Shown here: positions 21,420-57,068 of the stretch, piece after piece
Position numbering within the stretch: the first letter of the stretch is position 1
Layout of the letters: every line of letters starts with the position of its first letter
Translations under genes and position numbers: made by a program
Notes under the pieces: model-generated
Seen by the model: only the letters and a program-made list of their open reading frames with translations
What the model was told of the DNA's origin: nothing
Database searches by the model: none
Assembly (NCBI RefSeq): GCF_000718135.1
Contig: NZ_JOEM01000004.1
Coordinates: forward strand, 186,001 to 250,000
Direction: 5' to 3'
DNA: 64,000 nucleotides
Source: Streptomyces cyaneofuscatus
GTDB taxonomy: Bacteria; Actinomycetota; Actinomycetes; Streptomycetales; Streptomycetaceae

Positions 21420-21468
21420 ACGCCGAAGGGGCGCCCGCCGGTTGACCGGTCGGGCGCCCCTTCGGCGT
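21420..21468. terminator. Bidirectional terminator between the Pro/Gly-rich gene and clpX
   Basis: Perfect 18-bp stem (21420-21437 with 21451-21468) around a loop that can itself fold (CCGG TTGA CCGG). It lies between convergent genes and can serve both strands. Confidence 0.88.
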
Positions 21469-34705: not shown

Positions 34706-36145
34706 ATGACGTCGCAGACGACGCTGGCGAAGCCGGGCCAGGAGCCCGGTGAGCCGGACCGGCCGGACTCGTCGGGCGGGCTTCAGGCAGGCCTGAAGAA
34801 CCGCCACCTCTCGATGATCGCGATCGGCGGCGTGATCGGCGCCGGGCTCTTCGTGGGATCGAGTGCGGGCATCGCGGCCGCCGGTCCGGCGATCCTGATC
34901 TCGTACGCGATGGTCGGCCTGATGGTCGTCCTCGTGATGCGGATGCTCGGTGAGATGGCCGCCGCCCGCCCGAGCTCCGGCTCCTTCTCCGCCTACGCCG
35001 ACCAGGCGCTGGGCCGGTGGGCCGGTTTCTCCATCGGCTGGCTCTACTGGTTCTTCTGGGTCGTGGTGCTCGCCGTCGAGGCCACGGCCGGCGCCAAGAT
35101 CCTGGAGAGCTGGATCCCGGGCGTCCCGCAGTGGGCCTGGGCGCTGATCGTGATGGTCGTGCTGACCGCCACCAACCTGGTGTCCGTGGGCAGTTACGGT
35201 GAGTTCGAGTTCTGGTTCGCCGGGATCAAGGTCGTGGCGATCGCCGCGTTCGTGGTCGTCGGCTTCCTCGCGGTCTTCGGGTTCCTGCCCGGTTCGGACA
35301 ACCCGGGGTCGGGTCTCGCGCATCTGACGGACAGCGGCGGGTTCTTCCCCGAGGGACCCGGAGCGATCCTGACCGGTGTGCTGATGGTCGTCTTCTCGTT
35401 CATGGGCAGTGAGATCGTGACGCTGGCCGCCGGCGAGTCCTCGGACCCGCAGCGGGCCGTCTCGAAGGCCACCAACAGCGTGATCTGGCGTATCGCCGTC
35501 TTCTACCTCGGCTCGATCTTCGTCGTGCTGACGCTGCTGCCATGGAACGACCCGTCGATCCAGGAGAAGGGCAGCTATGTCGCCGCCCTCGACTCGATCG
35601 GGATCCCGCAGGCCGGCAACGTCATGGACTTCATCGTGCTGACGGCCGTGCTGTCGTGTCTCAACTCCGGCCTGTACACGGCCTCCCGGATGGCGTTCTC
35701 GCTCGGCGAGCGGGGCGACGCGCCGAAGTCCTTCGCCCAGGTCAACAAGCGCGGCGTGCCGCAGGCGGCGATCCTGTCCTCGGTCGTCTTCGGCTTCGTG
35801 GCGGTGTTCTTCAACTACCAGTGGCCCGACACGGTGTTCGCGTTCCTGCTGAACTCCTCCGGCGCGGTCGCGCTCTTCGTCTGGCTGGTCATCTGCTTCA
35901 CCCAGCTGCGGATGCGCGGGATCATCCTGCGCGAGACCCCGGGCAAGCTGGTCGTACGGATGTGGCTCTTCCCGTACCTCACCTGGGCGACGATCGCGGC
36001 GATCTCCTTCGTCCTGGTCTACATGCTGACCGACGACACCGCCCGCGAGCAGGTCGTGCTGTCGCTGCTGGTCGCGGCGCTGGTGGTGGGCATCTCGCTG
36101 GTCCGGGAGGCGCGCAGCCGCAAGGCGGTCACCCCTGCCGAGTGA
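34706..36145 (+). CDS. Amino-acid permease 1 (APC superfamily, GabP/AAT type)
   Basis: Protein of 479 residues from ATG at 34706, preceded by AAGGA; the open frame continues upstream without signals. It has twelve membrane segments. The signature GGVIGAGLFVGSSAGIAAAGPA at the first helix is the substrate-backbone site of APC transporters, and GEMAAARPSSGSFS and EFEFWFAGIKV are typical of the AAT/GabP subfamily. It is a proton-coupled importer of an amino acid or GABA; specificity cannot be read from sequence. It is one of three paralogues in this window (also 38448-39899 and 40021-41493). An inverted repeat (36160-36184) follows the stop. Confidence 0.92.
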   Translation: MTSQTTLAKPGQEPGEPDRPDSSGGLQAGLKNRHLSMIAIGGVIGAGLFVGSSAGIAAAGPAILISYAMVGLMVVLVMRMLGEMAAARPSSGSFSAYADQALGRWAGFSIGWLYWFFWVVVLAVEATAGAKILESWIPGVPQWAWALIVMVVLTATNLVSVGSYGEFEFWFAGIKVVAIAAFVVVGFLAVFGFLPGSDNPGSGLAHLTDSGGFFPEGPGAILTGVLMVVFSFMGSEIVTLAAGESSDPQRAVSKATNSVIWRIAVFYLGSIFVVLTLLPWNDPSIQEKGSYVAALDSIGIPQAGNVMDFIVLTAVLSCLNSGLYTASRMAFSLGERGDAPKSFAQVNKRGVPQAAILSSVVFGFVAVFFNYQWPDTVFAFLLNSSGAVALFVWLVICFTQLRMRGIILRETPGKLVVRMWLFPYLTWATIAAISFVLVYMLTDDTAREQVVLSLLVAALVVGISLVREARSRKAVTPAE

Positions 36146-36159
36146 CCCGTACGTGAGTG

Positions 36160-36184
36160 ATACGTGACGGGAGATGTCACGTAT
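36160..36184 (+). terminator. Perfect inverted repeat after permease 1
   Basis: ATACGTGAC, a 7-nt loop, then GTCACGTAT. It could be the permease terminator or an operator for the next gene. It lies 3 bp before the larger hairpin at 36188-36238. Confidence 0.55.
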
Positions 36185-36187
36185 ACC

Positions 36188-36238
36188 AGGGAGGCTCTTC
36201 TTCGTACCGCGTCAGCGCGAGCGAAGGAGAGCCTCCCT
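36188..36238 (+). promoter_or_regulatory. Hairpin sequestering the oxidoreductase ribosome-binding site
   Basis: AGGGAGGCTCTTCTTCG (36188-36204) pairs with CGAAGGAGAGCCTCCCT (36222-36238) over 17 bp with one mismatch and a 17-nt loop. The right arm contains the GAAGGAG ribosome-binding site and ends one base before the ATG at 36240. As mRNA this would block initiation unless opened. Confidence 0.7.
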
Positions 36239-36239
36239 C

Positions 36240-37535
36240 ATGGTTTCCGCACCACCCGCACCACCCACCTTCCAGACCGGCTTCCCCATCCGGCCCGACC
36301 GGCTGGTGGAGGCCGCCACGCCCGAGGATGTACGGGAGGCCGTGGCGTACGCCGGCGGGCGCGGGCTGCACGTCGCCGCGCACGCCTCCGGCCACGGCCT
36401 CCCCGGCCCCGTCGAGGGCGGGGTCCTCATCGCCACCCGCGCCCTGGACTCCGTCACCGTCGACCCGGTCCGCCGTACCGCCCGGATCGGCGCGGGCGCG
36501 AGCTGGGGCCGGGTGATCGAGGCGGCGGCCCCGCACGGGCTCGCCCCGCTCAACGGCTCCTCCCCCTCCGTGGGCGCCGTCTCCTACACGCTGGGCGGTG
36601 GGCTCGGAATCCTGGCCCGGGAGTTCGGGTACGCCGCCGACCACGTGCGCTCGCTGGACGTGGTGACCGCCGACGGCACCGCACGCCGGGTCACGCCGGA
36701 GCGCGAGCCGGAGCTCTTCTGGGGGCTGCGCGGGGGTGGGCACCGGCTGGGGGTGGTGACCGGCATGGAGATCGCTCTGGTGGCGGTGGAGCGGCTCTAC
36801 GGCGGCTCGATCGTCTTCGACGGGGCGTGGGCGGCCGAGGTGGTGCGCGGCTATCTGGCGTGGACGCGGACCGTGCCGGAGACCCTGACCTCGTCGCTGG
36901 CCGCGCTCGTCTACCCCGCCCTGCCGCAGTTGCCGGAGGAGCTGCGCGGGCGGTACGTGATCTCCGTGCGGGTGGCGTTCACGGGGAGCGCGGAGGAGGG
37001 CGAGCGGCTGGTGGCGCCGTTGCGGGCGATCGGGAGGTCCGCGCCGATCCTCTCGGACTTGCTGCGGGAGATGCCGTACACCGAGAGCCACACCATCCAC
37101 AGCGACCCGCCGTTCCCGCACGCCTACTACGGGGACAGTGCGGTGCTCGGCGAGCCGGACGCGGAGCGGACCGTACAGGCGTTTGAACTGGCCGGGCCCC
37201 GGGCGCCGATGATGACCGTGGTGCAGCTCAACCACCTGGGCGGGGCACTGGCTGCGCGGCCGGAGGTGGAGAACGCCGTGCCGTACCGCGATGCCGGGTT
37301 CCTGCTGCGGCTGCTGTCGCCGCTGGACGGTACGGAGGTGGGCGCGGTGCGTGCGCTGTACGGGGAGGTGGGGCGGGTGCTGGAGCCGGCCGTCCTGGGG
37401 CGGTCGCTGAACTTCTCCTTCGGCGGCGGGGACCGTACCGCCGGTTTCCATGAGGCGGAGACGGCGAAGAGGCTCGCCGGTCTGGTCTCCCAGTACGATC
37501 CGGCGGGCCTCTTCGGTGGCCCGTACGGGGCCTGA
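36240..37535 (+). CDS. FAD-binding oxidoreductase (BBE/PCMH type)
   Basis: Protein of 431 residues. The FAD-binding PCMH domain covers about 20-190 with HVAAHASGHGLPG (region of the histidine that binds FAD covalently in berberine-bridge-type enzymes), SVGAVSYTLGGGLGILAREFG and GLRGGGHRLGVVTGM. A substrate domain and a short C-terminal BBE-like motif (LNFSFGGGDRTAGF) follow. The oxidised substrate is unknown: sugars, alkaloids and polyketides are all known in the family. ATG at 36240 has GAAGGAG upstream, buried in a strong hairpin. It stands alone between a permease and bioY. Confidence 0.88.
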   Translation: MVSAPPAPPTFQTGFPIRPDRLVEAATPEDVREAVAYAGGRGLHVAAHASGHGLPGPVEGGVLIATRALDSVTVDPVRRTARIGAGASWGRVIEAAAPHGLAPLNGSSPSVGAVSYTLGGGLGILAREFGYAADHVRSLDVVTADGTARRVTPEREPELFWGLRGGGHRLGVVTGMEIALVAVERLYGGSIVFDGAWAAEVVRGYLAWTRTVPETLTSSLAALVYPALPQLPEELRGRYVISVRVAFTGSAEEGERLVAPLRAIGRSAPILSDLLREMPYTESHTIHSDPPFPHAYYGDSAVLGEPDAERTVQAFELAGPRAPMMTVVQLNHLGGALAARPEVENAVPYRDAGFLLRLLSPLDGTEVGAVRALYGEVGRVLEPAVLGRSLNFSFGGGDRTAGFHEAETAKRLAGLVSQYDPAGLFGGPYGA

Positions 37536-37553
37536 GTCTTCGGGCGAACGGGA

Positions 37554-38147
37554 TCAGCCTCGGCGGCCCAGCAGCTTCCAGGAGGCGGGTAGCGCGCCCA
37601 TCGCCAGGGCCGCCTTGAGCGCGTCGCCGATCAGGAACGGGACGAGGCCGGCCGCGACGGCGGCGCTCAGGGACATGCCGGTGGCGAGCGCCAGGTAGGG
37701 CACGCCGACGGCGTAGATGATCGCGGAGCCGATCACCATCGTGCCCGCCGTGCGGAGCACCGAGCGGTCACCGCCGCGGCGGGCGAGGGCGCCGACGACG
37801 GTGGCGGCGAGCAGCATCCCGAGGATGTAGCCGAGGGACGGCATCGCGTAGCCCGAGGTGCCCTCCGCGAACCACGGCATCCCGGCCATGCCGACGACCG
37901 CGTACAGCGCCAGGGCGAGGAAGCCGCGGCGGGCGCCGAGCGCGGTGCCGATGAGGAGCGCGGCGAAGGTCTGGCCGGTGACGGGGACCGGGGAGCCGGG
38001 GACGGGGACGGAGATCTGCGCCGCGATGCCGGTGAGGGCGGCGCCGCCCAGCACGAGGGCCGCGTCGACGGCGTAGCGGTGCCGGGCTGCGGGCAGCAGG
38101 TCGGCGAGGACCGCTCCGGAACGGACGGGGGCGGCAGCAGTGCTCAT
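37554..38147 (-). CDS. bioY: Biotin transporter substrate-binding subunit BioY
   Basis: S component of an ECF-type vitamin transporter; 197 residues and about six membrane helices. Family motifs are AAQISVPVPGSPVPVTGQTFAALLIG near the first loop, then GMAGMPWFAEGTSGYAMPSLGYILGML. No ECF ATPases or T component are next to it, so it would work alone or with a shared energising module. It is divergent from the second permease over 300 bp. No BioQ or BirA site is recognised with confidence. Confidence 0.95.
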   Translation of the reverse strand: MSTAAAPVRSGAVLADLLPAARHRYAVDAALVLGGAALTGIAAQISVPVPGSPVPVTGQTFAALLIGTALGARRGFLALALYAVVGMAGMPWFAEGTSGYAMPSLGYILGMLLAATVVGALARRGGDRSVLRTAGTMVIGSAIIYAVGVPYLALATGMSLSAAVAAGLVPFLIGDALKAALAMGALPASWKLLGRRG

Positions 38148-38193
38148 CGGGTCTCCGCGGGTGAGGGCAGGCGGGCTGGGACGGCTCCGCCAG

Positions 38194-38221
38194 GCAGGTG
38201 GGGTGGGGCAGGTGGGGTGGG
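38194..38221. repeat. Perfect 14-bp tandem repeat with G-quadruplex pattern
   Basis: Two exact copies of GCAGGTGGGGTGGG. The G-rich strand reads GGGG-T-GGGG-CAGGT-GGGG-T-GGG, which satisfies the usual four-tract quadruplex rule. It lies 47 bp upstream of the bioY start, on the strand that is template for bioY. Confidence 0.75.
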
Positions 38222-38401
38222 ACTGCTGCCGACGTTAGCCCAGCAGTGAACGACCGATCACCATCAGCCGCCCACAAAGCGGTGGTTGACGGGTTGGTGG
38301 GATTCGCACAAAGGTCCCCGCGCAATCGCCGCTGGGCGTGATGCTCGTCACTGAGGTGGGGCGGTGGGTGGTCCGTTTTGGCGGGAGGGGCATCGCGGGC
38401 C

Positions 38402-38415
38402 CAGACTGTAGGTTC
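38402..38415 (+). promoter_or_regulatory. Shared promoter motif upstream of permease 2
   Basis: CAGACTGTAGGTTC lies 46 bp before the ATG; TAGGTT fits a -10 element. The same motif with one change (CAGACTGTGGGTTC, 39972-39985) lies 49 bp before permease 3, implying a common duplicated promoter. Confidence 0.5.
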
Positions 38416-38447
38416 CCCATAAATGATCCGAGAGTGACCCGCACACC

Positions 38448-39899
38448 ATGCACGAGGCTCCCCCCACCCCGTCCGGGGCTTCCACGACCCCTGCTGAGCC
38501 CCTGGAGCACGGGCTGAAACAGCGTCACCTCACGATGCTCGGGCTCGGCGGGGTGATCGGGGCCGGGCTGTTCGTCGGGTCGGGCGCGGGCATCGCGGTG
38601 GCGGGGCCCGCCATCGTCGTCTCGTACCTGATCGCGGGCGCGCTCGCGATGCTGGTCATGCGGATGCTCGGCGAGATGTCCGCCGCGATGCCCGCCTCCG
38701 GCTCCTTCTCCGTGCACGCGGAGCGGGCGCTCGGGCGGTGGGCCGGGTTCAGCGTCGGCTGGCTGTACTGGTTCCTGCTCGTCGTGGTCCTCGCCGTGGA
38801 GGCGACGGCCGCCGCGCAGATCGCCCACGGGTGGGTGCCGGCGGTCGAACCGTGGGCGTGGGTGCTGCTGTTCATGATCGTGTTCACCGCGGCCAACCTG
38901 GCGGCGGTGAAGAACTTCGGCGAGTTCGAGTTCTGGTTCGCCTCCTTGAAGGTCGGCGCGATCGTGGTCTTTCTGGTGCTCGGCGGCCTGGCGGTCTTCG
39001 GCCTGCTCCCGGACACCGACCCGGTCGGGATGACCAACCTGACCGGCCAGGGGGGCTTCCTGCCGAACGGCTGGGGCGGGGTCGTCTCCGGCGTCCTGAC
39101 CGTGGTCTTCGCCTTCGGCGGCCTGGAGGTCGTCACCATCGCCGCCGCCGAGACGGACGACCCGGCGCGCGCGGTCGGGCGCGCGGTGCGCAGCGCGGTG
39201 GTGCGCATCCTCTTCTTCTACGTCGGGTCGATGCTGGTCATCGTGACCGTGCTGCCGTGGACCGCCCAGCAGGCCGGGCTGAGCCCGTACGTGAAGGTGC
39301 TGGACTCGATCGGGGTGCCGTCGGCCGGGCAGATCATGAACATCGTGGTGTTCGTGGCGCTGCTCTCGGCGCTCAACGCCAATCTGTACGGCTCCTCGCG
39401 GATGGTGTTCTCGCTGGCCGAGCGCGGGGAGGCGCCGCGCGGGCTGCTGAAGGTGTCCCGCAGGCCTGGTACGGAGGGCGGGGTGCCCCGGCGGGCGGTG
39501 CTGGCCTCGGTGGCGTTCGGCTTCGTCTCCGTCCTGCTCAATCTGCTCTGGCCGGACACCGTGTTCCTCTACATGCTCAACTCCGTCGGCGCGGTGCTCC
39601 TGTTCGTCTGGGCGCTGATCGCCGCCTCCCAACTGCGGCTGCGCGCCCGGCTGGAGCGGGAGGCGCCGGGTGCGCTCGCGCTGCGGATGTGGTGGTTCCC
39701 GTATCTGACCTGGCTGACGCTGGCGGGGCTGCTGGGGGTGCTGGTGCTGATGCTGACGGATGCCGACGCGCGGCCGCAGGTGCTGTGGTCGGCGGGGGCG
39801 ACGGCGCTGGTGCTGCTGGTGGCGGTGGGGCGTCAGTGGCGGGAGCAGCGGGGACGCACGGGGTCGGAACGCAAGGGGTCGGCCCTTACCGGCCGGTAG
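38448..39899 (+). CDS. Amino-acid permease 2 (APC superfamily)
   Basis: Protein of 483 residues and twelve membrane segments. The first helix has GLGGVIGAGLFVGSGAGIAVAGPA; GEMSAAMPASGSFSVHAERALGRWAGF and KNFGEFEFWFASLKV mark the AAT/GabP subfamily. It is highly similar by eye to permease 3, sharing motifs through the whole length, and less so to permease 1. ATG at 38448 begins MHEAPPTPSG. A proton-coupled amino-acid importer; substrate unknown. Confidence 0.92.
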   Translation: MHEAPPTPSGASTTPAEPLEHGLKQRHLTMLGLGGVIGAGLFVGSGAGIAVAGPAIVVSYLIAGALAMLVMRMLGEMSAAMPASGSFSVHAERALGRWAGFSVGWLYWFLLVVVLAVEATAAAQIAHGWVPAVEPWAWVLLFMIVFTAANLAAVKNFGEFEFWFASLKVGAIVVFLVLGGLAVFGLLPDTDPVGMTNLTGQGGFLPNGWGGVVSGVLTVVFAFGGLEVVTIAAAETDDPARAVGRAVRSAVVRILFFYVGSMLVIVTVLPWTAQQAGLSPYVKVLDSIGVPSAGQIMNIVVFVALLSALNANLYGSSRMVFSLAERGEAPRGLLKVSRRPGTEGGVPRRAVLASVAFGFVSVLLNLLWPDTVFLYMLNSVGAVLLFVWALIAASQLRLRARLEREAPGALALRMWWFPYLTWLTLAGLLGVLVLMLTDADARPQVLWSAGATALVLLVAVGRQWREQRGRTGSERKGSALTGR

Positions 39900-39971
39900 G
39901 CGCGTGTGCACCTTGTGTGAGCCTCGTGCCCGTATAGCGGACACCCGTTCCGTGTGAGCGGTGCGGATGCT

Positions 39972-39985
39972 CAGACTGTGGGTTC
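39972..39985 (+). promoter_or_regulatory. Shared promoter motif upstream of permease 3
   Basis: CAGACTGTGGGTTC, a near copy of the motif at 38402-38415 and at nearly the same distance from the start codon. This permease therefore probably has its own promoter although permease 2 ends only 121 bp upstream. Confidence 0.5.
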
Positions 39986-40020
39986 GTTCCCCTGTCTCCG
40001 CTAGCGAACAGAGCTTGTCC

Positions 40021-41493
40021 ATGTCTCGGACCTCCGCGTCTCCCCCCACCGCTGACTCCGCGGCCCCCACCGGGGCCTCGGCGGACTCCGCGGCCCCCAC
40101 CGGGGCCTCGGCGGACTCCGCGCTCACCCACGGTCTCAAGCAGCGGCACCTCTCGATGATCGCCCTCGGCGGGGTCATCGGCGCTGGGCTCTTCGTGGGC
40201 TCCGGGGCCGGGATCGCCGCCGCCGGCCCCTCGATCGTCGTCGCGTACGCGCTCTCCGGGCTGCTCGTCATGATGGTGATGCGCATGCTCGGCGAGATGT
40301 CGGCCGCCAACCCGGCCTCCGGCTCCTTCTCCGTGCACGCCGAACGGGCGATCGGCCCCTGGGCCGGGTTCACCGCGGGCTGGTCCTTCTGGTTCCTGCT
40401 CTGCGTCGCCGTCGGCCTGGAGGGCATCGGCGCCGCCCAGATCGTCAGCGGCTGGCTGCCCGGGACGCCCGAGTGGGCCTGGGTCGCCCTGTTCATGGTG
40501 GTCTTCCTGGGGACGAACCTGGCGGCCGTGAAGAACTTCGGCGAGTTCGAGTTCTGGTTCGCCGCGCTCAAGGTCATCGCGATCACCCTGTTCCTGGTGC
40601 TCGGCCTGCTGGCGATCTTCGGCGTCCTCCCGGACACGGACGCGCCCGGTCTGACCAACCTCACCGGCGACGGCGGCTTCCTGCCCAAGGGCATGGACGG
40701 CTTCATCATCGGGCTCCTCGCCTCCGTCTTCGCGTACGGCGGTCTGGAGACCGTCACCATCGCCGCCGCCGAGTCGGAGAACCCGGTGCAGGGCGTCGCG
40801 AAGGCGGTCCGTACGGCGATGTGGCGCATCGCTGTCTTCTACATCGGCTCGATGGCCGTCATCGTCACCCTGGTCCCCTGGGACAACCCGAAGGTCGCCG
40901 AGGTCGGCCCCTTCTACGCGATGCTCGACCACCTCGGCATCGGCGGCGCCGCGCAGATCATGAACGTGGTCATCCTCATCGCCCTGCTCTCCGCGATGAA
41001 CGCCAACATCTACGGCGCCTCGCGGATGGCCCGGTCCCTGGTCGCCCGGGGCCAGGGACCGGCCGTACTCGGCAGGATCTCCTCCGGGGTGCCGCGCAAC
41101 GCGGTGCTGTTCTCCTCGGTGTTCGGCTTCCTGTGCGTGCTGCTCAGCTACTGGCGGCCGGACGACGTCTTCCCCTGGCTGCTGAACATGATCGGCGCGG
41201 TGATCCTGGTCGTCTGGATCTTCATCGCCGTCTCCCAGCTGATCCTGCGCCGCCGCACCGAGCGCGAGTCGCCCGAGAAGCTGGTCGTACGGATGTGGCT
41301 CTTCCCGGTCCTCACGATCGTCGCCCTGGCGGGCATGGCGGGCATCTTCCTGCTGATGCTGCGCCAGCCGGACACCCGCGACCAGCTGTTGGCCACGGGG
41401 GCGCTGACGGCGGTGCTGATCGGCATCGGTGTCGTACGTCAGCGGCGGCTCCGCAGCAGTGACGCCGCCGAGATCCCGGCGCAGCGGAAGTAG
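40021..41493 (+). CDS. Amino-acid permease 3 (APC superfamily)
   Basis: Protein of 490 residues from ATG at 40021 (MSRTSASPPT). The N-terminal cytosolic tail contains a tandem DSAAPTGASA repeat (two exact copies plus DSA) encoded by 30-bp units at 40054 and 40084. The APC core begins at GLKQRHLSMIALGGVIGAGLF; it has twelve helices and AAT/GabP motifs (GEMSAANPASGSFSVHAERAIG, KNFGEFEFWFAALKV). Closest in the window to permease 2, consistent with tandem duplication. Confidence 0.92.
   Translation: MSRTSASPPTADSAAPTGASADSAAPTGASADSALTHGLKQRHLSMIALGGVIGAGLFVGSGAGIAAAGPSIVVAYALSGLLVMMVMRMLGEMSAANPASGSFSVHAERAIGPWAGFTAGWSFWFLLCVAVGLEGIGAAQIVSGWLPGTPEWAWVALFMVVFLGTNLAAVKNFGEFEFWFAALKVIAITLFLVLGLLAIFGVLPDTDAPGLTNLTGDGGFLPKGMDGFIIGLLASVFAYGGLETVTIAAAESENPVQGVAKAVRTAMWRIAVFYIGSMAVIVTLVPWDNPKVAEVGPFYAMLDHLGIGGAAQIMNVVILIALLSAMNANIYGASRMARSLVARGQGPAVLGRISSGVPRNAVLFSSVFGFLCVLLSYWRPDDVFPWLLNMIGAVILVVWIFIAVSQLILRRRTERESPEKLVVRMWLFPVLTIVALAGMAGIFLLMLRQPDTRDQLLATGALTAVLIGIGVVRQRRLRSSDAAEIPAQRK
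40054..40123 (+). repeat. 30-bp tandem repeats inside permease 3
   Basis: Two identical 30-bp units (40054-40083, 40084-40113) and the first 10 bp of a third encode repeated DSAAPTGASA in the disordered tail. The period is in frame, so copy number can vary without breaking the gene. Confidence 0.9.
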
Positions 41494-51445: not shown

Positions 51446-52206
51446 TCCGGCCCCGGCTCTCCAGCACCATCGAACGCCGCCTCCTGGTGAACTACCGGGT
51501 GGACCCGTCCGTCGCGGCGGCCCTGCTGCCCGCGCCGCTGCGGCCCCAACTGGTGCGCGGCCAGGCGGTGGCGGGGATCTGCCTGCTCCGGATCGGCGGC
51601 GTCCGCCCGGGCTGGGCCCCAGCGGCGACCGGGGTGACCAGCGAGAACGCGGCACACCGGATCTCCGTCGAGTGGGACGGCCCGGACGGCGTCGAGTGCG
51701 GCGTGTACATCCCGCGCCGCGACACCGCCTCCCGTCTCAACGCCTTCGCGGGCGGCCGGATCTACCCGGGTGAGCACGGCCGGGCGGACTTCACGGTGCG
51801 GGAGGAGGCCGACGCCGTACGGGTGGCCTTCGCGACCCGGGACGGTGAGGTGGAGGTCGACGCGACGGTGGAGCCGGCCGGGGAGCTGCGCGGGAGCGGG
51901 CTGTTCACGGACCTGGCGGAGGCGTCGGAGTTCTTCCGCCTCGGCAGCCGGGGCCTCTCCCCCAACGCCGGGGGCACCCACCTGGACGTCCTCGAACTGT
52001 CCACGGACGCCTATAAGGTGACGGCGGGCCGGCCCCGTACCGTACGCTCCTCGTTCTTCGAGGACCCGGACCGCTTCCCGCCGGGCAGTGCGGTGCTGGA
52101 CAGCGCGCTGGTGATGCGGGGCGTGGCGGCCGACTGGTCGCAGGGGGCGCCGTTCCGGGTGGGGGCGCGCGACGCTTCGCCGCCCGGGTCACCGGGGTGC
52201 GGCTGA
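51442..52206 (+). CDS. DUF2071 (YqjF-like) protein
   Basis: Protein of 254 residues of the DUF2071 acetoacetate-decarboxylase-like beta fold family. Seen: NYRVDPSVAAALLPAPLRPQLV near the start, then GICLLRIGGVRPGW, VYIPRRDTASRLNAFAGGRIYPGEH, and a C-terminal DSALVMRGVAADW. Function unknown in the family. Its coupling to the ArsR gene (4-base overlap) suggests that this regulator controls it. The last 25 residues are low complexity. Confidence 0.85.
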   Translation: MIRPRLSSTIERRLLVNYRVDPSVAAALLPAPLRPQLVRGQAVAGICLLRIGGVRPGWAPAATGVTSENAAHRISVEWDGPDGVECGVYIPRRDTASRLNAFAGGRIYPGEHGRADFTVREEADAVRVAFATRDGEVEVDATVEPAGELRGSGLFTDLAEASEFFRLGSRGLSPNAGGTHLDVLELSTDAYKVTAGRPRTVRSSFFEDPDRFPPGSAVLDSALVMRGVAADWSQGAPFRVGARDASPPGSPGCG

Positions 52207-52208
52207 AG

Positions 52209-53129
52209 TCACCGGGGTGGGGCTGAGGGGACGGCCTCGGGGAGGTGCCCGCCTGAGCGCTGCCCGTCGGGCCGGTCCGAGCCCTGGCCGTCGGCGAGCA
52301 GGCGCAGTGCGTCGGCGGAGGGTTGGTCGTTGGCAGTGTAGATCTCCAGCCGGTGGTCGGGGATGTCGGGCTGGAGCCAGACCTGGTAGTCGACGCTGAC
52401 CCTGCCGACGGTCGGGTGGCGCATCCGCATGGTGCCCACGGTGCAGTCGGCGACATCGCCGGTGGCCCACAGCCTGGCGAAGTCGTCGCTGCGCATGACG
52501 AGTGCACCGATGAGCTCGGCCAGCCGGCGATCGGTGGGGTACCGCCCCGCGGTGAACCGCAGGTAGGCCACATGGATCCGGGCGAGTTCGTCCCAGTTCT
52601 CGTGCAGGGCACGGGTGTGGGAGTCGAGGAAGAACATCCGCGGGACGGACGGCCGTCGCGCCGGGTCCTGCGGCGCGTCGAAGTCGACGTGTTCGGCGGT
52701 GAGGGCGTGCCCGGTGCGGTTCCACGCCAGCACATCTCCCCGGCGGCCGAGGACGACGGCCGGGGTGTTGCGGCCCAGGGACTCCAGAAGCGCGAGCACC
52801 CGGGGATGCAGCCGCTGGCGCTGGTGGCGGACCATGCGCGGTTCCGCCCGCCGGAGCGCCAGGTTGTGCAGGTGGGCGCTCTCCGCGGGGTCGAGGGTGA
52901 GGATGCGGGCGAGTGCGTCGAGGACCTGCCGGGAGGCGGCCCCGGCCTGGCCCTGCTCCAGCCGGGTGTAGTAGCCGACGCTCACCCCGGCGAGCTGGGC
53001 CAGCTCCTCCCGCCGGAGCCCGGGGACGCGGCGGGAGGTGCCGTAGGTGCGCAGTCCGATGTCCTCCGGTGTGACCCGGGCGCGGCGGGACTTGAGGAAC
53101 GTCCCGAGGCTCTCCAGTTCCATGGCCAT
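52209..53129 (-). CDS. XRE-family regulator with MmyB-like ligand domain
   Basis: Protein of 306 residues. The N-terminal HTH is RVPGLRREELAQLAGVSVGYYTRLEQGQAGAASRQVLDALARIL, preceded by a helix common to this group. The C-terminal MmyB-like ligand-binding domain includes GDVLAWNRTGHALTAEHVDF and DDFARLWATGDVAD. Members bind fatty acids or other hydrophobic ligands and repress neighbouring transporter or oxidoreductase genes. It is divergent from an MFS exporter gene with an inverted repeat (53162-53186) between them, so it probably controls that exporter. Confidence 0.92.
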   Translation of the reverse strand: MAMELESLGTFLKSRRARVTPEDIGLRTYGTSRRVPGLRREELAQLAGVSVGYYTRLEQGQAGAASRQVLDALARILTLDPAESAHLHNLALRRAEPRMVRHQRQRLHPRVLALLESLGRNTPAVVLGRRGDVLAWNRTGHALTAEHVDFDAPQDPARRPSVPRMFFLDSHTRALHENWDELARIHVAYLRFTAGRYPTDRRLAELIGALVMRSDDFARLWATGDVADCTVGTMRMRHPTVGRVSVDYQVWLQPDIPDHRLEIYTANDQPSADALRLLADGQGSDRPDGQRSGGHLPEAVPSAPPR

Positions 53130-53161
53130 GGCTGCGAGTGTAGGAGGGCACGGCGGGGTCC

Positions 53162-53186
53162 TGGGTATCCCTGCGAGGTGTACCCA
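53162..53186. promoter_or_regulatory. Operator candidate in the XRE-MFS divergent region
   Basis: TGGGTA (53162-53167) and TACCCA (53181-53186), a perfect 6-bp inverted repeat with a 13-nt spacer, centred in the 80-bp gap between the two genes. Confidence 0.5.
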
Positions 53187-53209
53187 CGGCGTGGGGATGG
53201 CTGCGCGTC

Positions 53210-54805
53210 ATGGCGAATCCCAAGCTCGTGTCCATGAAGCGAACTACTGACATCCACCAGCCCGGTCCGCGGGCATGGCTCGGCCTGGCGGTGATCCTCG
53301 GCCCGGTTCTGCTGGTCGCGATGGACGGCTCGGTGCTGTTCCTGGCCATGCCGAAGGTCACCGAAGCCCTCGCGCCGACCGCCGACCAGGCGTTGTGGGC
53401 GCTGGACATCTACGGATTCGTCGTGGGCTCCCTGCTCATCACCTTCGGCGGCATCGGTGACCGGTACGGCCGGCTGAAGCTGCTGATGAGCGGGGTGGCC
53501 CTGTTCGGTCTCGCCTCGCTGGGAGCGGCGTTCGCGTCGAGCCCCGACACGCTCATCGCCTTCCGGGCGCTCATGGGCCTGGCGGGGGCGACGCTGCTGC
53601 CCTCGGCGCTCGCGGTGCTCGGCGAACTGTTCGCGGACCCAAGGCAGCGGGCCCAGGCGATCGGCATCTTCGCCGCCGCCTTCGCCGCCGGGTTCGCGAT
53701 CGGGCCGGCGGTCGGCGGGCAGTTGTTGAGCCACTTCTGGTGGGGTTCGGTCTTCCTGGTCAACCTCCCGGTCCTCGTGCTGTTCCTCGTCCTGGCCCCG
53801 TTCCTGCTCCGCGAGGTGGCGACCTCGCGCACGGGCCGCATAGACGTCCTGAGCACCGTGCAGTCCGTGGCCGGCCTCCTGCTGACCATCTACGCCGTCA
53901 AGCACCTGGCCGCGGAGGGCTGGTCGACGGCCGTCGCGGCCGTGGGGGTGGCCGGCCTGGCGGTGCTGGTGTGGTTCGTCCGGCGGCAGCTCACGCTGGA
54001 GCATCCGCTGATCGACTTCAGGCTGTTCCGGGACCGGGTGTTCACCGTCGCGATCATCACCGGGCTGCTGCCGCTCGCCGCGTGGTCGGCGACCGCCTAC
54101 CTCTCGGGGGTCTACCTCCAGTCCGTACTGGGGATCCCCATCCTGCGCGCCGCGCTGCTCGCCCTCCCCGGGGCCCTGCTGCTCACCGTCACGTGCATCG
54201 TGACGCCGATGCTGGTCGCGCGCATCGGCAAGCGGACGGCGCTCGTCACGTGCCACCTCCTCGTGGCCGCCGGTCTGCTCCTGCTGCTGCCCGTCGCGTC
54301 CTCCGGCGGGGTGGGCTGGTACATCGCGTCCACGGTGCTCGCCGGGGTCGGGTACGGCATCTCGTTCAGCCTCGTCGCCGAGACGGCCGTCGCCGCGGTT
54401 CCGGCCGAACGGGCCGGGTCGGCGGCCGCGATCGCCGAGACCAGCAACGAGCTCGGCAACGCTCTGGGCATCGCGCTGCTCGGCTCGCTGTCCGTCCTCG
54501 TCTTCCGCCTCCAGGGCCCTGACCTCGCCGGTACGTTCGGCGAGACGGTCGCCCTCCCCGGCCTCGCGCAGGCGGTGGTCGACCAGGCGCAGGACGCCTT
54601 CGTCACCGGCCTCCGGGTGGTCGCCGTCACCGCCGCCCTCCTCCACATCGTCCTCGGCCTGCTCACCCTGCGCCGGGTTCCGAAGTCTCCGAAGTCCCTG
54701 GAGGACGAGGGGGGTGCCGGCCGGGGCGGCGAGGGCGACCGCCCGGAGGCCGCCGGGGCGGAGGCCTCCGGGTCGGGCGGCGAGAGGGAGGCCGCCATGC
54801 CCTGA
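53210..54805 (+). CDS. MFS drug:proton antiporter (DHA2, 14-TM type)
   Basis: Protein of 531 residues and about fourteen membrane segments. The DHA2 signatures are LDIYGFVVGSLLITFGGIGDRYGRLKLLMSG (motif A region) and RALMGLAGATLLPSALAVLGELF, with a later motif C-like stretch GPAVGGQLL. The C-terminus is a charged Gly/Glu-rich tail. This is the quinolone/methyl-viologen (SmvA/QacA-like) exporter group; substrate unknown. ATG at 53210 follows GGGGATGG; ATG 53234 is an alternative. The divergent XRE regulator probably controls it. Confidence 0.93.
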   Translation: MANPKLVSMKRTTDIHQPGPRAWLGLAVILGPVLLVAMDGSVLFLAMPKVTEALAPTADQALWALDIYGFVVGSLLITFGGIGDRYGRLKLLMSGVALFGLASLGAAFASSPDTLIAFRALMGLAGATLLPSALAVLGELFADPRQRAQAIGIFAAAFAAGFAIGPAVGGQLLSHFWWGSVFLVNLPVLVLFLVLAPFLLREVATSRTGRIDVLSTVQSVAGLLLTIYAVKHLAAEGWSTAVAAVGVAGLAVLVWFVRRQLTLEHPLIDFRLFRDRVFTVAIITGLLPLAAWSATAYLSGVYLQSVLGIPILRAALLALPGALLLTVTCIVTPMLVARIGKRTALVTCHLLVAAGLLLLLPVASSGGVGWYIASTVLAGVGYGISFSLVAETAVAAVPAERAGSAAAIAETSNELGNALGIALLGSLSVLVFRLQGPDLAGTFGETVALPGLAQAVVDQAQDAFVTGLRVVAVTAALLHIVLGLLTLRRVPKSPKSLEDEGGAGRGGEGDRPEAAGAEASGSGGEREAAMP

Positions 54806-54890
54806 GCCGAAAAATGCCCGGCACGGATGCGGCCGGACTGCCACGATGACCTTCGTCCACCCGCCCCCGCCCCGAGCCTGGAGGCGCTCC

Positions 54891-55547
54891 ATGAGCCCCG
54901 GCCCCGCCCTCGTCCCGGCCGACCCCAGCGTCCTGCACCCGATGCCCGGGCAGCCGCGCGTGGTGCAGTTGAAGCCGCTGGTCACCTCGGAGCTGATCGA
55001 GGTGGGGGCGTACTCGTACTACGACGACCCCGAGTACGCCACGGAGTTCGAGACCCGGAACGTGCTCTACCACTACGGCCCGGAACGCCTGGTCATCGGC
55101 AAGTTCTGCGCGCTGGGGACGGGGGTACGGTTCATCATGAACGGCGCCAACCACCGTATGGACGGCCCGTCCACGTTCCCGTTCCCGACGCTCGGCGGCT
55201 CTTGGGCCGACCACTTCGACCTGCTGACGGGCCTGCCCAACCGAGGCGACACGGTGATCGGCAACGACGTGTGGATCGGCTACGAGGCGGTCATCATGCC
55301 GGGCGTCCGCATCGGGCATGGCGCGATCATCAGCTCGCGGTCCGTGGTCGTCTCGGACGTCCCGGACTACGGCATCGTCGGCGGCAACCCGGCCGGCCTG
55401 ATCCGCACCCGGTACGAGGAGGCGGACATCGCGCGCCTGTTGGCGGTGGCGTGGTGGGACTGGCCGACGGAGCACCTGACACGCCATATCCGTACGGTGA
55501 TGTCGGGCACGGTGGCGGAGCTGGAGGCGGCGGCTCCCCGGGACTGA
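54891..55547 (+). CDS. Hexapeptide acetyltransferase, Vat/CatB type
   Basis: Protein of 218 residues from ATG at 54891, with GGAGG six bases upstream. The left-handed beta-helix repeats begin GPERLVIGKFCALGTGVRFIMNGANHRMDG; the catalytic-type His is in NGANHRMDG. It continues with GDTVIGNDVWIGYEAVIMPGVRIGHGAIISSRSVV and IVGGNPAGLIR. This matches the xenobiotic acetyltransferase (streptogramin/chloramphenicol) family; the real substrate is unknown. It stands 85 bp after the MFS exporter on the same strand, so the two may form a resistance-like pair. Confidence 0.88.
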   Translation: MSPGPALVPADPSVLHPMPGQPRVVQLKPLVTSELIEVGAYSYYDDPEYATEFETRNVLYHYGPERLVIGKFCALGTGVRFIMNGANHRMDGPSTFPFPTLGGSWADHFDLLTGLPNRGDTVIGNDVWIGYEAVIMPGVRIGHGAIISSRSVVVSDVPDYGIVGGNPAGLIRTRYEEADIARLLAVAWWDWPTEHLTRHIRTVMSGTVAELEAAAPRD

Positions 55548-55593: not shown

Positions 55594-55614
55594 CTAGGGG
55601 TCGACCTACCGCAG

Positions 55615-56100
55615 TTGCTTCCCTGCTTGCCGGGCGAGATCTTCAGGATCGCGGCCACGGCGTCCGTGATCTCCTGCTCACGCACTTCACGCACCCATAC
55701 GCTGTGGAGCTGGCCGGCCCCCTCTCACTTCGTCACCGAGCCGATCGAGCTTCCCGACGGCCGCAAGGTCCGCGTCAGCGCCTACCCCGACGGCAGTATC
55801 CGGTTCCGGGTGGACGGGCTGCCGTACGTCCTCACCGAGGCGTACCTCAGCGGTATCCCCGAGAAGGACAACGTCTGCCCCCACCTCTTCCAGACCCGGG
55901 TGGACAAGGCGTTCGATGTGCGGGTGACCGCCGTCGGTCATCGGTTGTTCGGGGCCCGGGTCGACAGCCCCGATCTCGACTGGCGGCGTCGCCAGAACCT
56001 CATGCGGTGCGGGCCGATGGAGGTGCCCGAAGCGGTGCGGGTCTCCGTCATCGCCTACCTCACCCACTTCCGTCTGGTGTACGGGGCGTTCGACTTCGCC
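55615..56100 (+). pseudogene. ATP-grasp RiPP-maturase fragment, N-terminally scrambled
   Basis: The open frame runs on to 56331 but is a composite. From about 55732 it shows LPDGRKVRVSAYPDGSIRF and VDGLPYVLTEAYLSG, a segment I cannot place. From about 55876 it reads CPHLFQTRVDKAFDVRV, then GARVDSPDLDWRRRQ, and MEVPEAVRVSVIAYLTHF up to YGAFDFA at 56100. This is the central part of ATP-grasp ribosomal peptide maturases (TgmB/MvdD-like). The N-terminal half is missing and the sequence after 56100 is unrelated in this frame; the expected continuation lies on the other strand (56149-56325). Confidence 0.7.
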
Positions 56101-56152
56101 CCTCGGCCAGTACGTCGGCGAGGGCGGCGCGCAGTTGAGCGGATGTGCTCAC
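56101..56152 (-). pseudogene. Methyltransferase N-terminal fragment in inverted segment
   Basis: GTG at 56152 overlaps the stop of the ATP-grasp fragment as GTGA and encodes VSTSAQLRAALADVLAEG. This resembles the start of the protein methyltransferase that follows the ATP-grasp gene in such clusters. The match ends at the breakpoint near 56101. Confidence 0.55.
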
Positions 56153-56325
56153 GGTTCCGAGCCTTTCTCCAGCTGATCGGCGAGAGCATGGGCGACCGCG
56201 TCGGTGATGCCGGGCGGCTGCCATGCCCACTGCCCGTTGGGGTTGCACTCAAGGAAGTACCAGGCCCCGTCACGGGTTACGGCCAGGAACCGCGACCGGA
56301 CGGTTCCTGCCCGGGTACACCAGCT
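56149..56325 (-). pseudogene. ATP-grasp RiPP-maturase C-terminal fragment, inverted
   Basis: On the minus strand, FLAVTRDGAWYFLECNPNGQ, then WAWQPPGITDAVAHALADQ and a stop at 56149-56151. The FLECNPNGQW motif is the metal- and ATP-binding end of the maturases and should directly follow the FGAFDFA-type motif. Flipping 56101-56280 joins FDFA (at 56100) to VTRDGAWYFLEC in frame, restoring the order. Confidence 0.7.
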
Positions 56326-56642
56326 TCATGATCGCCCGCCCGCACGACCGGCCACCCCGTCCGCCCCTGGCCCTGTTGCCCGGCGAGGAACGGCCCAGCC
56401 TGATCGACCCTGCGGTGATCGGGACGTGGACAGGTGGTTGGGTGGCCCAGCTCGCGGCGCCGGCGGCGGAACGTATGGGGTCGGGGCCTGAACAGATCCT
56501 CTGGGACGTCTCGACCGGCTCCCAGGCGCGGACGGCGCCCGGGCCGGGTGGCGGGTGGACGGTCGTGCAGCGTGGTCCCGTACGGCTGTGGGACCGGGTC
56601 GAGACCGCGATCCCGTGGCTTCGTGCTGCCCCGATGCCGTAA
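56290..56642 (+). pseudogene. Methyltransferase C-terminal fragment
   Basis: Open frame encoding GTATGRFLPGYTSFMIARPH, LLPGEERPSLIDPAVIGTW, ERMGSGPEQILWDVSTGSQA and GGWTVVQRGPVRLWDRVETA. I recognise this as the C-terminal region of the SAM methyltransferase of ATP-grasp RiPP clusters. The catalytic Rossmann core is absent, so only the ends of the gene survive. It is assigned from remembered family features. Confidence 0.55.
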
Positions 56643-56660
56643 GGAAGATAACCCGAGACC

Positions 56661-57068
56661 GTGTTGCAGTGCACCGCCGTGGCACCCGTTCCGTACGCCG
56701 AGGCGCTCCTCGCGCTCGCCACCCTGGAGGGAGGGCCCGAGCACCCGCCCGATGTACTCGCCCCGGACGAGTTCCTGCTCTGCGAACTGGGCGAGCACGA
56801 CGAGTCGGTGGAGCACGCCGCGTACCTCTGGGCAGCCCGGACCCCGGACGTGGACCAGGACCTGTGGCTGCTCTATGCCGGCACCGGCGCCCACCGCCTC
56901 TACCGGCTCGACATCCTGCCCCTGTGCCCCGCCCGCCTCCGCGGCCTGGCCACCCACACGGTCACCTCATGCGCGTACTTCGACCACCACCCCGGCCCGC
57001 ACTCCTTCTTCGTGACCGACCCCCTCGGGGACCTGATCACGTCGCCCAACGGCATCGACGAGCCCTGA
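56661..57068 (+). CDS. Hypothetical protein, 135 residues
   Basis: Unrecognised. From GTG at 56661, an acidic, soluble protein: DEFLLCELGEHDESVEHAAYLWAA and RTPDVDQDLWLLYAGTGAH, ending FFVTDPLGDLITSPNGIDEP. Codon bias is normal, so it is probably a real gene. It could be a further part of the decayed neighbouring cassette or an independent gene. It is convergent with the decarboxylase gene; the stops lie back to back (57068/57069) with no room for a terminator. AAGGAAG upstream is a weak ribosome-binding site. Confidence 0.65.
   Translation: MLQCTAVAPVPYAEALLALATLEGGPEHPPDVLAPDEFLLCELGEHDESVEHAAYLWAARTPDVDQDLWLLYAGTGAHRLYRLDILPLCPARLRGLATHTVTSCAYFDHHPGPHSFFVTDPLGDLITSPNGIDEP

Follow-up and report, generated by a model that had tools for sequence, protein, structure and literature searches.

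The locus at 55609-56613 of the window, the window being the whole 64,000-nucleotide stretch of Streptomyces cyaneofuscatus DNA that was analysed, is very probably a dead RiPP (graspetide) cassette, scrambled by deletions and by two short in-place inversions. Graspetide production from the present locus is impossible. The initial annotation had proposed a cassette decayed by deletion and one small inversion. Comparison with relatives supports both kinds of lesion, but that account was incomplete: there are two inversions and several deletions, and an unrelated gene, here called AB′, was also caught in the scramble. The pieces, in window coordinates, are as follows.

54891..55547, plus strand: Vat-like hexapeptide acetyltransferase gene, left flank (NCBIfam NF000311, 243.6 bits against a cut-off of 300)
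55609..55652, minus strand: piece B, part of the 3′ half of AB′, lacking the last ∼17 codons (86–100% DNA identity to other Streptomyces)
55653..55872, no strand: micro-inversion 1, across the AB′/maturase deletion junction (220 bp, edges ±1 bp)
55653..55719, minus strand: maturase piece ending ...HSVWVREVREQEITDAVA, which should directly precede 55873 (95% to G618, 90% to G385)
55720..55723, no strand: deletion junction D1, AB′ 5′ end to maturase interior (AB′ homology ends at 55724, maturase homology at 55719)
55724..55871, plus strand: piece A, the 5′ half of AB′ without its first ∼7 codons (94.6% to S. microflavus L096, 81–93% to others)
55873..56100, plus strand: ATP-grasp maturase piece, profile 194-274 (TIGR04187, E 4.5e-24; 92% DNA identity to G618)
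56101..56280, minus strand: micro-inversion 2, with the maturase C-terminus and stop, the GTGA overlap and the first ∼18 methyltransferase codons (TIGR04187 275-312; 95% to G618, reversed)
56281..56613, plus strand: methyltransferase C-terminal piece (TIGR04188 224-346; 92% DNA identity to G651, 87% to G618)
56614..57068, plus strand: cassette-side flank, a short stretch and a 135-aa gene (86% to G618, 84% to G385, 80% to G651)

The initial annotation had read the middle of a maturase on the plus strand up to 56100 and its continuation on the minus strand from 56280 to 56149, and both halves indeed belong to one family. The plus-strand piece matches TIGR04187 (ATP-grasp ribosomal peptide maturase) with 85.2 bits; the minus-strand piece matches the same model over its adjoining last positions, 275-312 of 312 (E 1.1e-12, 47.8 bits), such that neighbouring positions of one model are found on opposite strands. 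The proposed maturase start at 55732 did not hold: in the reading from 55714 the TIGR04187 match starts at residue 53, the maturase begins at 55873, and the earlier stretch (55732-55871) is a different gene, AB′. Both maturase pieces have weaker matches to TIGR04184 and TIGR04185, and neither attains the curated TIGR04187 cut-off (350 bits, full length). They are the sole TIGR04187 matches at E ≤ 0.001 across the host genome (7.9 Mb, 126 contigs). In a sample of the genus 86 of 101 genomes were matched, 70 of them above the cut-off; the host genome has the relic alone. The maturase relic is a pseudogene of the TIGR04187 family and no working member. Pfam gave no match for either maturase piece or for the methyltransferase piece.

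The methyltransferase is likewise in two parts. Its C-terminus, which had been placed on the plus strand near 56290, is found there as a match of 56289-56639 to TIGR04188 (graspetide-system methyltransferase; profile 224-346 of 363, E 3.7e-29, 102 bits), short of the full-length cut-off of 380 bits. In G618, whose methyltransferase is intact, the PCMT domain lies within the stretch that the window lacks. The N-terminus was said to follow the maturase stop through a GTGA overlap; the overlap is read directly, the minus-strand stop at 56149-56151 overlapping a GTG start, and by eye the ∼17 residues after that start agree with the start of the G618 methyltransferase. No relic piece passes its family cut-off, and the locus is a member of this cassette kind as a pseudogene only. 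The host has two further TIGR04188-like methyltransferases, at C26:95383-96405 and C4:291181-291870 (315 and 253 bits, both below cut-off), possibly of the imiditide/pamtide kind.

Micro-inversion 2 is confirmed by alignment to G618, which has the cassette at this place in the ancestral arrangement. The plus-strand maturase piece aligns to L143 7956-8185, while 56101-56283 aligns on the opposite strand to L143 8365-8183 and abuts it. The same opposite-strand abutting alignment is seen in G651, G385 and S. sindenensis, the reversed match in the last beginning at 56114. Among foreign loci with both maturase pieces within 2 kb, the two are in the ancestral orientation in 61 of 61 (39 distinct sequences), a count that leaves out L197, the locus of the host genome itself and the sole exception. 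The claimed inversion of 56101-56280 is thereby upheld, and the relatives do not carry the two strands as separate intact genes. The edges share 3 bp (GCC/GGC), giving a 180-bp segment with 3-bp ambiguity; within those 3 bp this is a conservative micro-inversion: the segment was turned where it stood, and its edges neither gained nor lost bases.

Micro-inversion 1, not in the initial annotation, breaks two genes at once. On the maturase side, G618 has 55654-55719 on the opposite strand (95%), directly adjoining 55873; the 55653-55719 and 55873 pieces are in the ancestral strand order in 41 of 41 foreign loci (22 distinct sequences). On the other side is AB′, a small gene conserved in Streptomyces (87 aa in S. 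microflavus, L096 7989-8252) with no NCBIfam or Pfam match. In S. microflavus, piece B is 100% identical and comes 1 nt after piece A, and in all 20 foreign loci having both pieces (14 distinct sequences) their relative strand is opposite to that in the window; the loci behind this count and the 61 and 41 above overlap. Inversion of 55653-55872 accounts for the breaks in maturase and AB′ together and leaves the number of bases unchanged. Inverted microhomology at its edges amounts to 2 bp at most. Base 55872 is C, where 18 AB′ loci (some from the same genome) have G in 15 and A in 3, so that this flip carries either one substitution or a 1-bp imperfect junction; that odd base apart, it too is a conservative micro-inversion with nothing gained or lost.

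No AB′ is seen in G618, G651, G325 and S. sindenensis, and G385 has only a 33% match elsewhere; conversely, neither the maturase nor the methyltransferase is matched at any of 13 AB′ loci. AB′ would ancestrally have been a neighbour of the cassette; no genome seen has both together. A second AB′-like gene lies near C4:131.5k, its protein 63% identical to S. microflavus AB′.

Several deletions accompany the flips. D1 removed the start of AB′ and the N-terminus of the maturase; judging by G618, it would also have taken a regulator, an ATPase-like gene and the precursor. D2, at 56280/56281, cost the methyltransferase 643-645 bp (versus G618, G651 and G385), and D3, near 56613, cost it the last ∼39 codons, which went together with intergenic DNA, 183 bp versus G618. 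The remaining plus-strand piece 56281-56613 is thus short of ∼645 bp on its 5′ side and those codons on its 3′ side. Some 45 bp with the last AB′ codons are lost near 55604-55613 (versus S. microflavus).

The flanks are shared with relatives. The Vat-like gene is found there in all seven genomes compared. The 135-aa gene (56661-57068) also lies 3′ of the methyltransferase in G385, G618 and G651; it has no family match, and similar stretches occur elsewhere in other genomes. Farther left in the window, a pair of XRE-like regulator and MFS transporter (52164-54838) has no same-place match in G618, S. microflavus, S. sindenensis or G325, and 34790-41447 holds three paralogous stretches of ∼1.2 kb that cross-match in relatives.

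In the seven genomes, which are those examined and not a systematic sample, the maturase and methyltransferase are intact at this place in two (G385 and G651) and broken or absent in five, each in its own way. S. sindenensis JCM 4164 has a maturase with one stop and G618 one with two frameshifts; such single-base lesions in draft genomes could be sequencing errors. G325 gives no maturase match and has a truncated and frameshifted methyltransferase. In S. microflavus JCM 4496 neither gene is matched, and the cassette may never have been present there. S. flaveus L097 was left out of the seven, as no further flank aligned; a 79% Vat-like gene there adjoins AB′, with no maturase or methyltransferase match. 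These varied broken and empty states suggest that the cassette is dispensable in the group.

The intact cassette and precursor that were to be sought in related strains are thus present, the enzymes in G385 and G651 and precursors in G618 and G651. The latter two match TIGR04186 (that of G618 also PF14408), and their genes directly precede that of the maturase, within the region that the window has lost; the G618 and G651 methyltransferases match TIGR04188, that of G618 with a PCMT domain. No precursor (TIGR04186/PF14408) was found in the host genome, the same search being matchless in control genomes also.

Apparent breakage of such cassettes is seen outside the seven as well. By eye, the S. 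arboris protein P0129 joins the ORF upstream of the precursor in G618 to the methyltransferase end, apparently by another deletion. S. niveus NRRL 2466 has a further broken cassette (L092 8075-8557) with the maturase running into the methyltransferase end, apparently also through a deletion. An apparently full-length ATP-grasp maturase of 321 aa (P0005) is recorded under the name S. cyaneofuscatus; so either some strains under this name have the scramble and others lack it, or the name takes in more than one species.

No further in-place flip was seen in the aligned part of this contig. Alignment of the whole of C4 (408,229 bp, the window being C4:186001-250000) to 478,000 bp of G618 gave 61 colinear plus blocks (307,709 bases) and seven in-place reversed matches at E ≤ 1e-5, in a scan insensitive to short or strongly diverged flips. 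Five of the seven are palindromes inside plus-strand blocks and were dropped from the count; the remaining two are flips 1 and 2, together spanning 628 bp. Where the window was compared with parts of G385 and of G651 (E ≤ 1e-8), the palindrome 21420-21468 was the only in-place reversed match besides the flips. Outside the window, C4:89104-135462 is a 46-kb stretch of which just 2 kb is at the same place in G618, probably an island.

The genome is a draft of 126 contigs, and an assembly artefact has this in its favour. The scramble reads through in an open chimeric ORF of 234-238 aa (55615 or 55627 to 56331) that spans D1, D2 and the flip junctions. That an assembly error produced it is very unlikely, a chance we would put at close to nil, because the ORF recurs in a separate S. 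cyaneofuscatus record (234 aa, 230/234 identical, thus four substitutions) with all five junctions in common. The cluster of this ORF has 10 sequences on 2 contigs, and 6 contigs, of up to 7,838,151 bp, carry the methyltransferase end (104 aa, D3 junction included); the matching records are taken as independent assemblies.

The chimeric ORF might itself be the point, the scramble having created a new gene that is expressed and useful. Its openness, its near-identity in the second record and its cluster of 10 agree with this, but strains of one species are expected to be near-identical anyway, long chance ORFs are frequent here on every strand, part of the ORF reads other genes in antisense or out of frame, and the maturase piece alone within it gives a family match. 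We regard a new gene as quite improbable.

The differences from relatives were counted by codon position (1/2/3). For the methyltransferase piece they are 5/2/19 versus G651 and 10/4/27 versus G618; versus G618 the maturase pieces give 8/4/14 and the flanking decarboxylase 28/11/66. This suggests recent decay, though with little weight, since the G618 maturase is itself frameshifted.

The lesions are established by comparison; their order we infer from geometry rather than from an intermediate state. Next to the Vat-like gene the ancestor would have had the trio seen in relatives: a GRASP_targ precursor, a maturase of the TIGR04187 family and a PIMT-like methyltransferase of the TIGR04188 family. 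A deletion would first have joined the maturase interior to the 5′ part of AB′, and the 220-bp segment over the D1 junction would then have been reversed; flip 1 contains D1 and so came after or with it. The ∼645-bp deletion would have taken the methyltransferase middle. The 180-bp segment between the maturase interior and the D2 junction ends at that junction, so that its reversal would have come after D2 or together with it, and a further deletion would have removed the methyltransferase end. An intermediate with the deletions and without the flips was looked for in three overlapping draws of 392, 394 and 392 genomes, with two candidates scored per genome and matches listed at E ≤ 1e-30 or 1e-60, and none was found: the host genome alone gave a listed match across the junctions in the two draws containing it, and the third draw gave none.

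The rejoining would have been illegitimate and of microhomology scale, by Ku/LigD end joining of short fragments or by replication template switching, two mechanisms that we infer as candidates and that the flanks alone cannot tell apart. The host genome has one Ku gene and two genes of the LigD-polymerase type. End joining operates at induced breaks in S. ambofaciens, where some scars hold captured DNA, according to the available part of that report (PMC5869714). Clean primate micro-inversions with edges down to 3 nt are attributed, in the available part of their report, to microhomology-mediated break-induced replication (PMC8755829).

Could a single catastrophic event, whether serial template switching or local shattering and religation, have made the deletions and both flips? 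All lesions lie inside ∼1 kb, and the 308-kb G618 alignment shows no in-place flips other than these two, which fall within 628 bp. Yet both flips abut their neighbours to 1-3 bp, for which a hopping copy would need to land by coincidence on matching positions, and flip 1 holds an already formed deletion junction. One event is therefore unlikely, and stepwise decay by deletions and two in-place inversions is preferred. Another idea, that the segments are a programmed or phase-variable switch invertible by a recombinase, draws on two short reversed segments lying side by side. Invertible promoters driven by a recombinase, like phase-variable inversions within genes, depend on inverted repeats at either side as well as on the enzyme, and they switch to and fro. 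Here the edges lack inverted repeats (60-bp flanks against 2000 control pairs), on which ground recombination at flanking repeats, whether homologous or by a recombinase, was rejected. The best inverted-repeat score of flip 1 is below the mean of the controls; flip 2 has a 9-bp pair 18 and 34 bp from its edges, and 4.85% of controls score at least as high. With flip 2 returned to its earlier orientation, a 6-bp stem closing a 4-base loop could form at its right edge, but we give this no weight. The separate S. cyaneofuscatus record moreover has the same orientation, and neither orientation restores a whole gene, because most of both enzyme genes is deleted. A switch is accordingly extremely improbable.

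The relic is real, apparently recent and of a known cassette kind; its unusual part is the mutational signature. In the literature as partly covered (bacteria, E. coli and Streptomyces pseudogenes; PMC8755829, PMC2483231, PMC7977185) no natural bacterial micro-inversions of this kind were found described, and the bacterial papers found on micro-inversion, in their available parts, only mention or cite animal cases. The S. cyaneofuscatus counterpart of the chimeric ORF is annotated as a hypothetical protein. Since gene callers render such loci as hypothetical proteins, bacterial micro-inversions can escape counting. It is possible, if doubtful, that short conservative inversions with near-zero flanking homology are a regular and overlooked mode of decay in Streptomyces, with microhomology-scale repair both deleting and reversing 100-300-bp pieces once selection is lost. 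If so, clusters of flips would point to sites of repeated action by a single repair process, either Ku/LigD end joining or template switching. With orthologues at this place for comparison, the two flips are legible almost to the base and offer a worked example, and the approach (reversed matches within colinear blocks, palindromes removed) could be used to obtain a micro-inversion rate and to link it to a repair pathway.

Recombinase-driven invertible elements resemble the present case in that short segments are inverted in place within genes, but the flips of the window are without inverted repeats at their edges. The cassette itself is like those of the graspimiditides (group 13; fuscimiditide, amycolimiditide and albusimiditide), as described in the available part of PMC13001092: the trio in relatives comprises a GRASP_targ/Actino_peptide precursor, a TIGR04187-type maturase and a TIGR04188 PIMT-like methyltransferase. 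In those systems, by the same source, the maturase links Thr to Asp through omega-esters, and an aspartimide is formed by the PIMT homologue. In contrast to them, the window is without a detected precursor, both enzymes are fragmentary and two segments are reversed. Streptomyces break-repair scars (PMC5869714) provide a precedent in the genus for end-joining scars that include captured DNA and require Ku and LigC/LigD; unlike for the window, the word inversion is absent from their main text in its available part. Similar in form are the human-chimpanzee micro-inversions (PMC8755829, in its available part), which are clean and in place with tiny edge repeats, down to 3 nt there and 3 and ≤2 bp here; those are 17-33 bp long, whereas the two described here are of 180 and 220 bp, bacterial, and both in one relic together with deletions.
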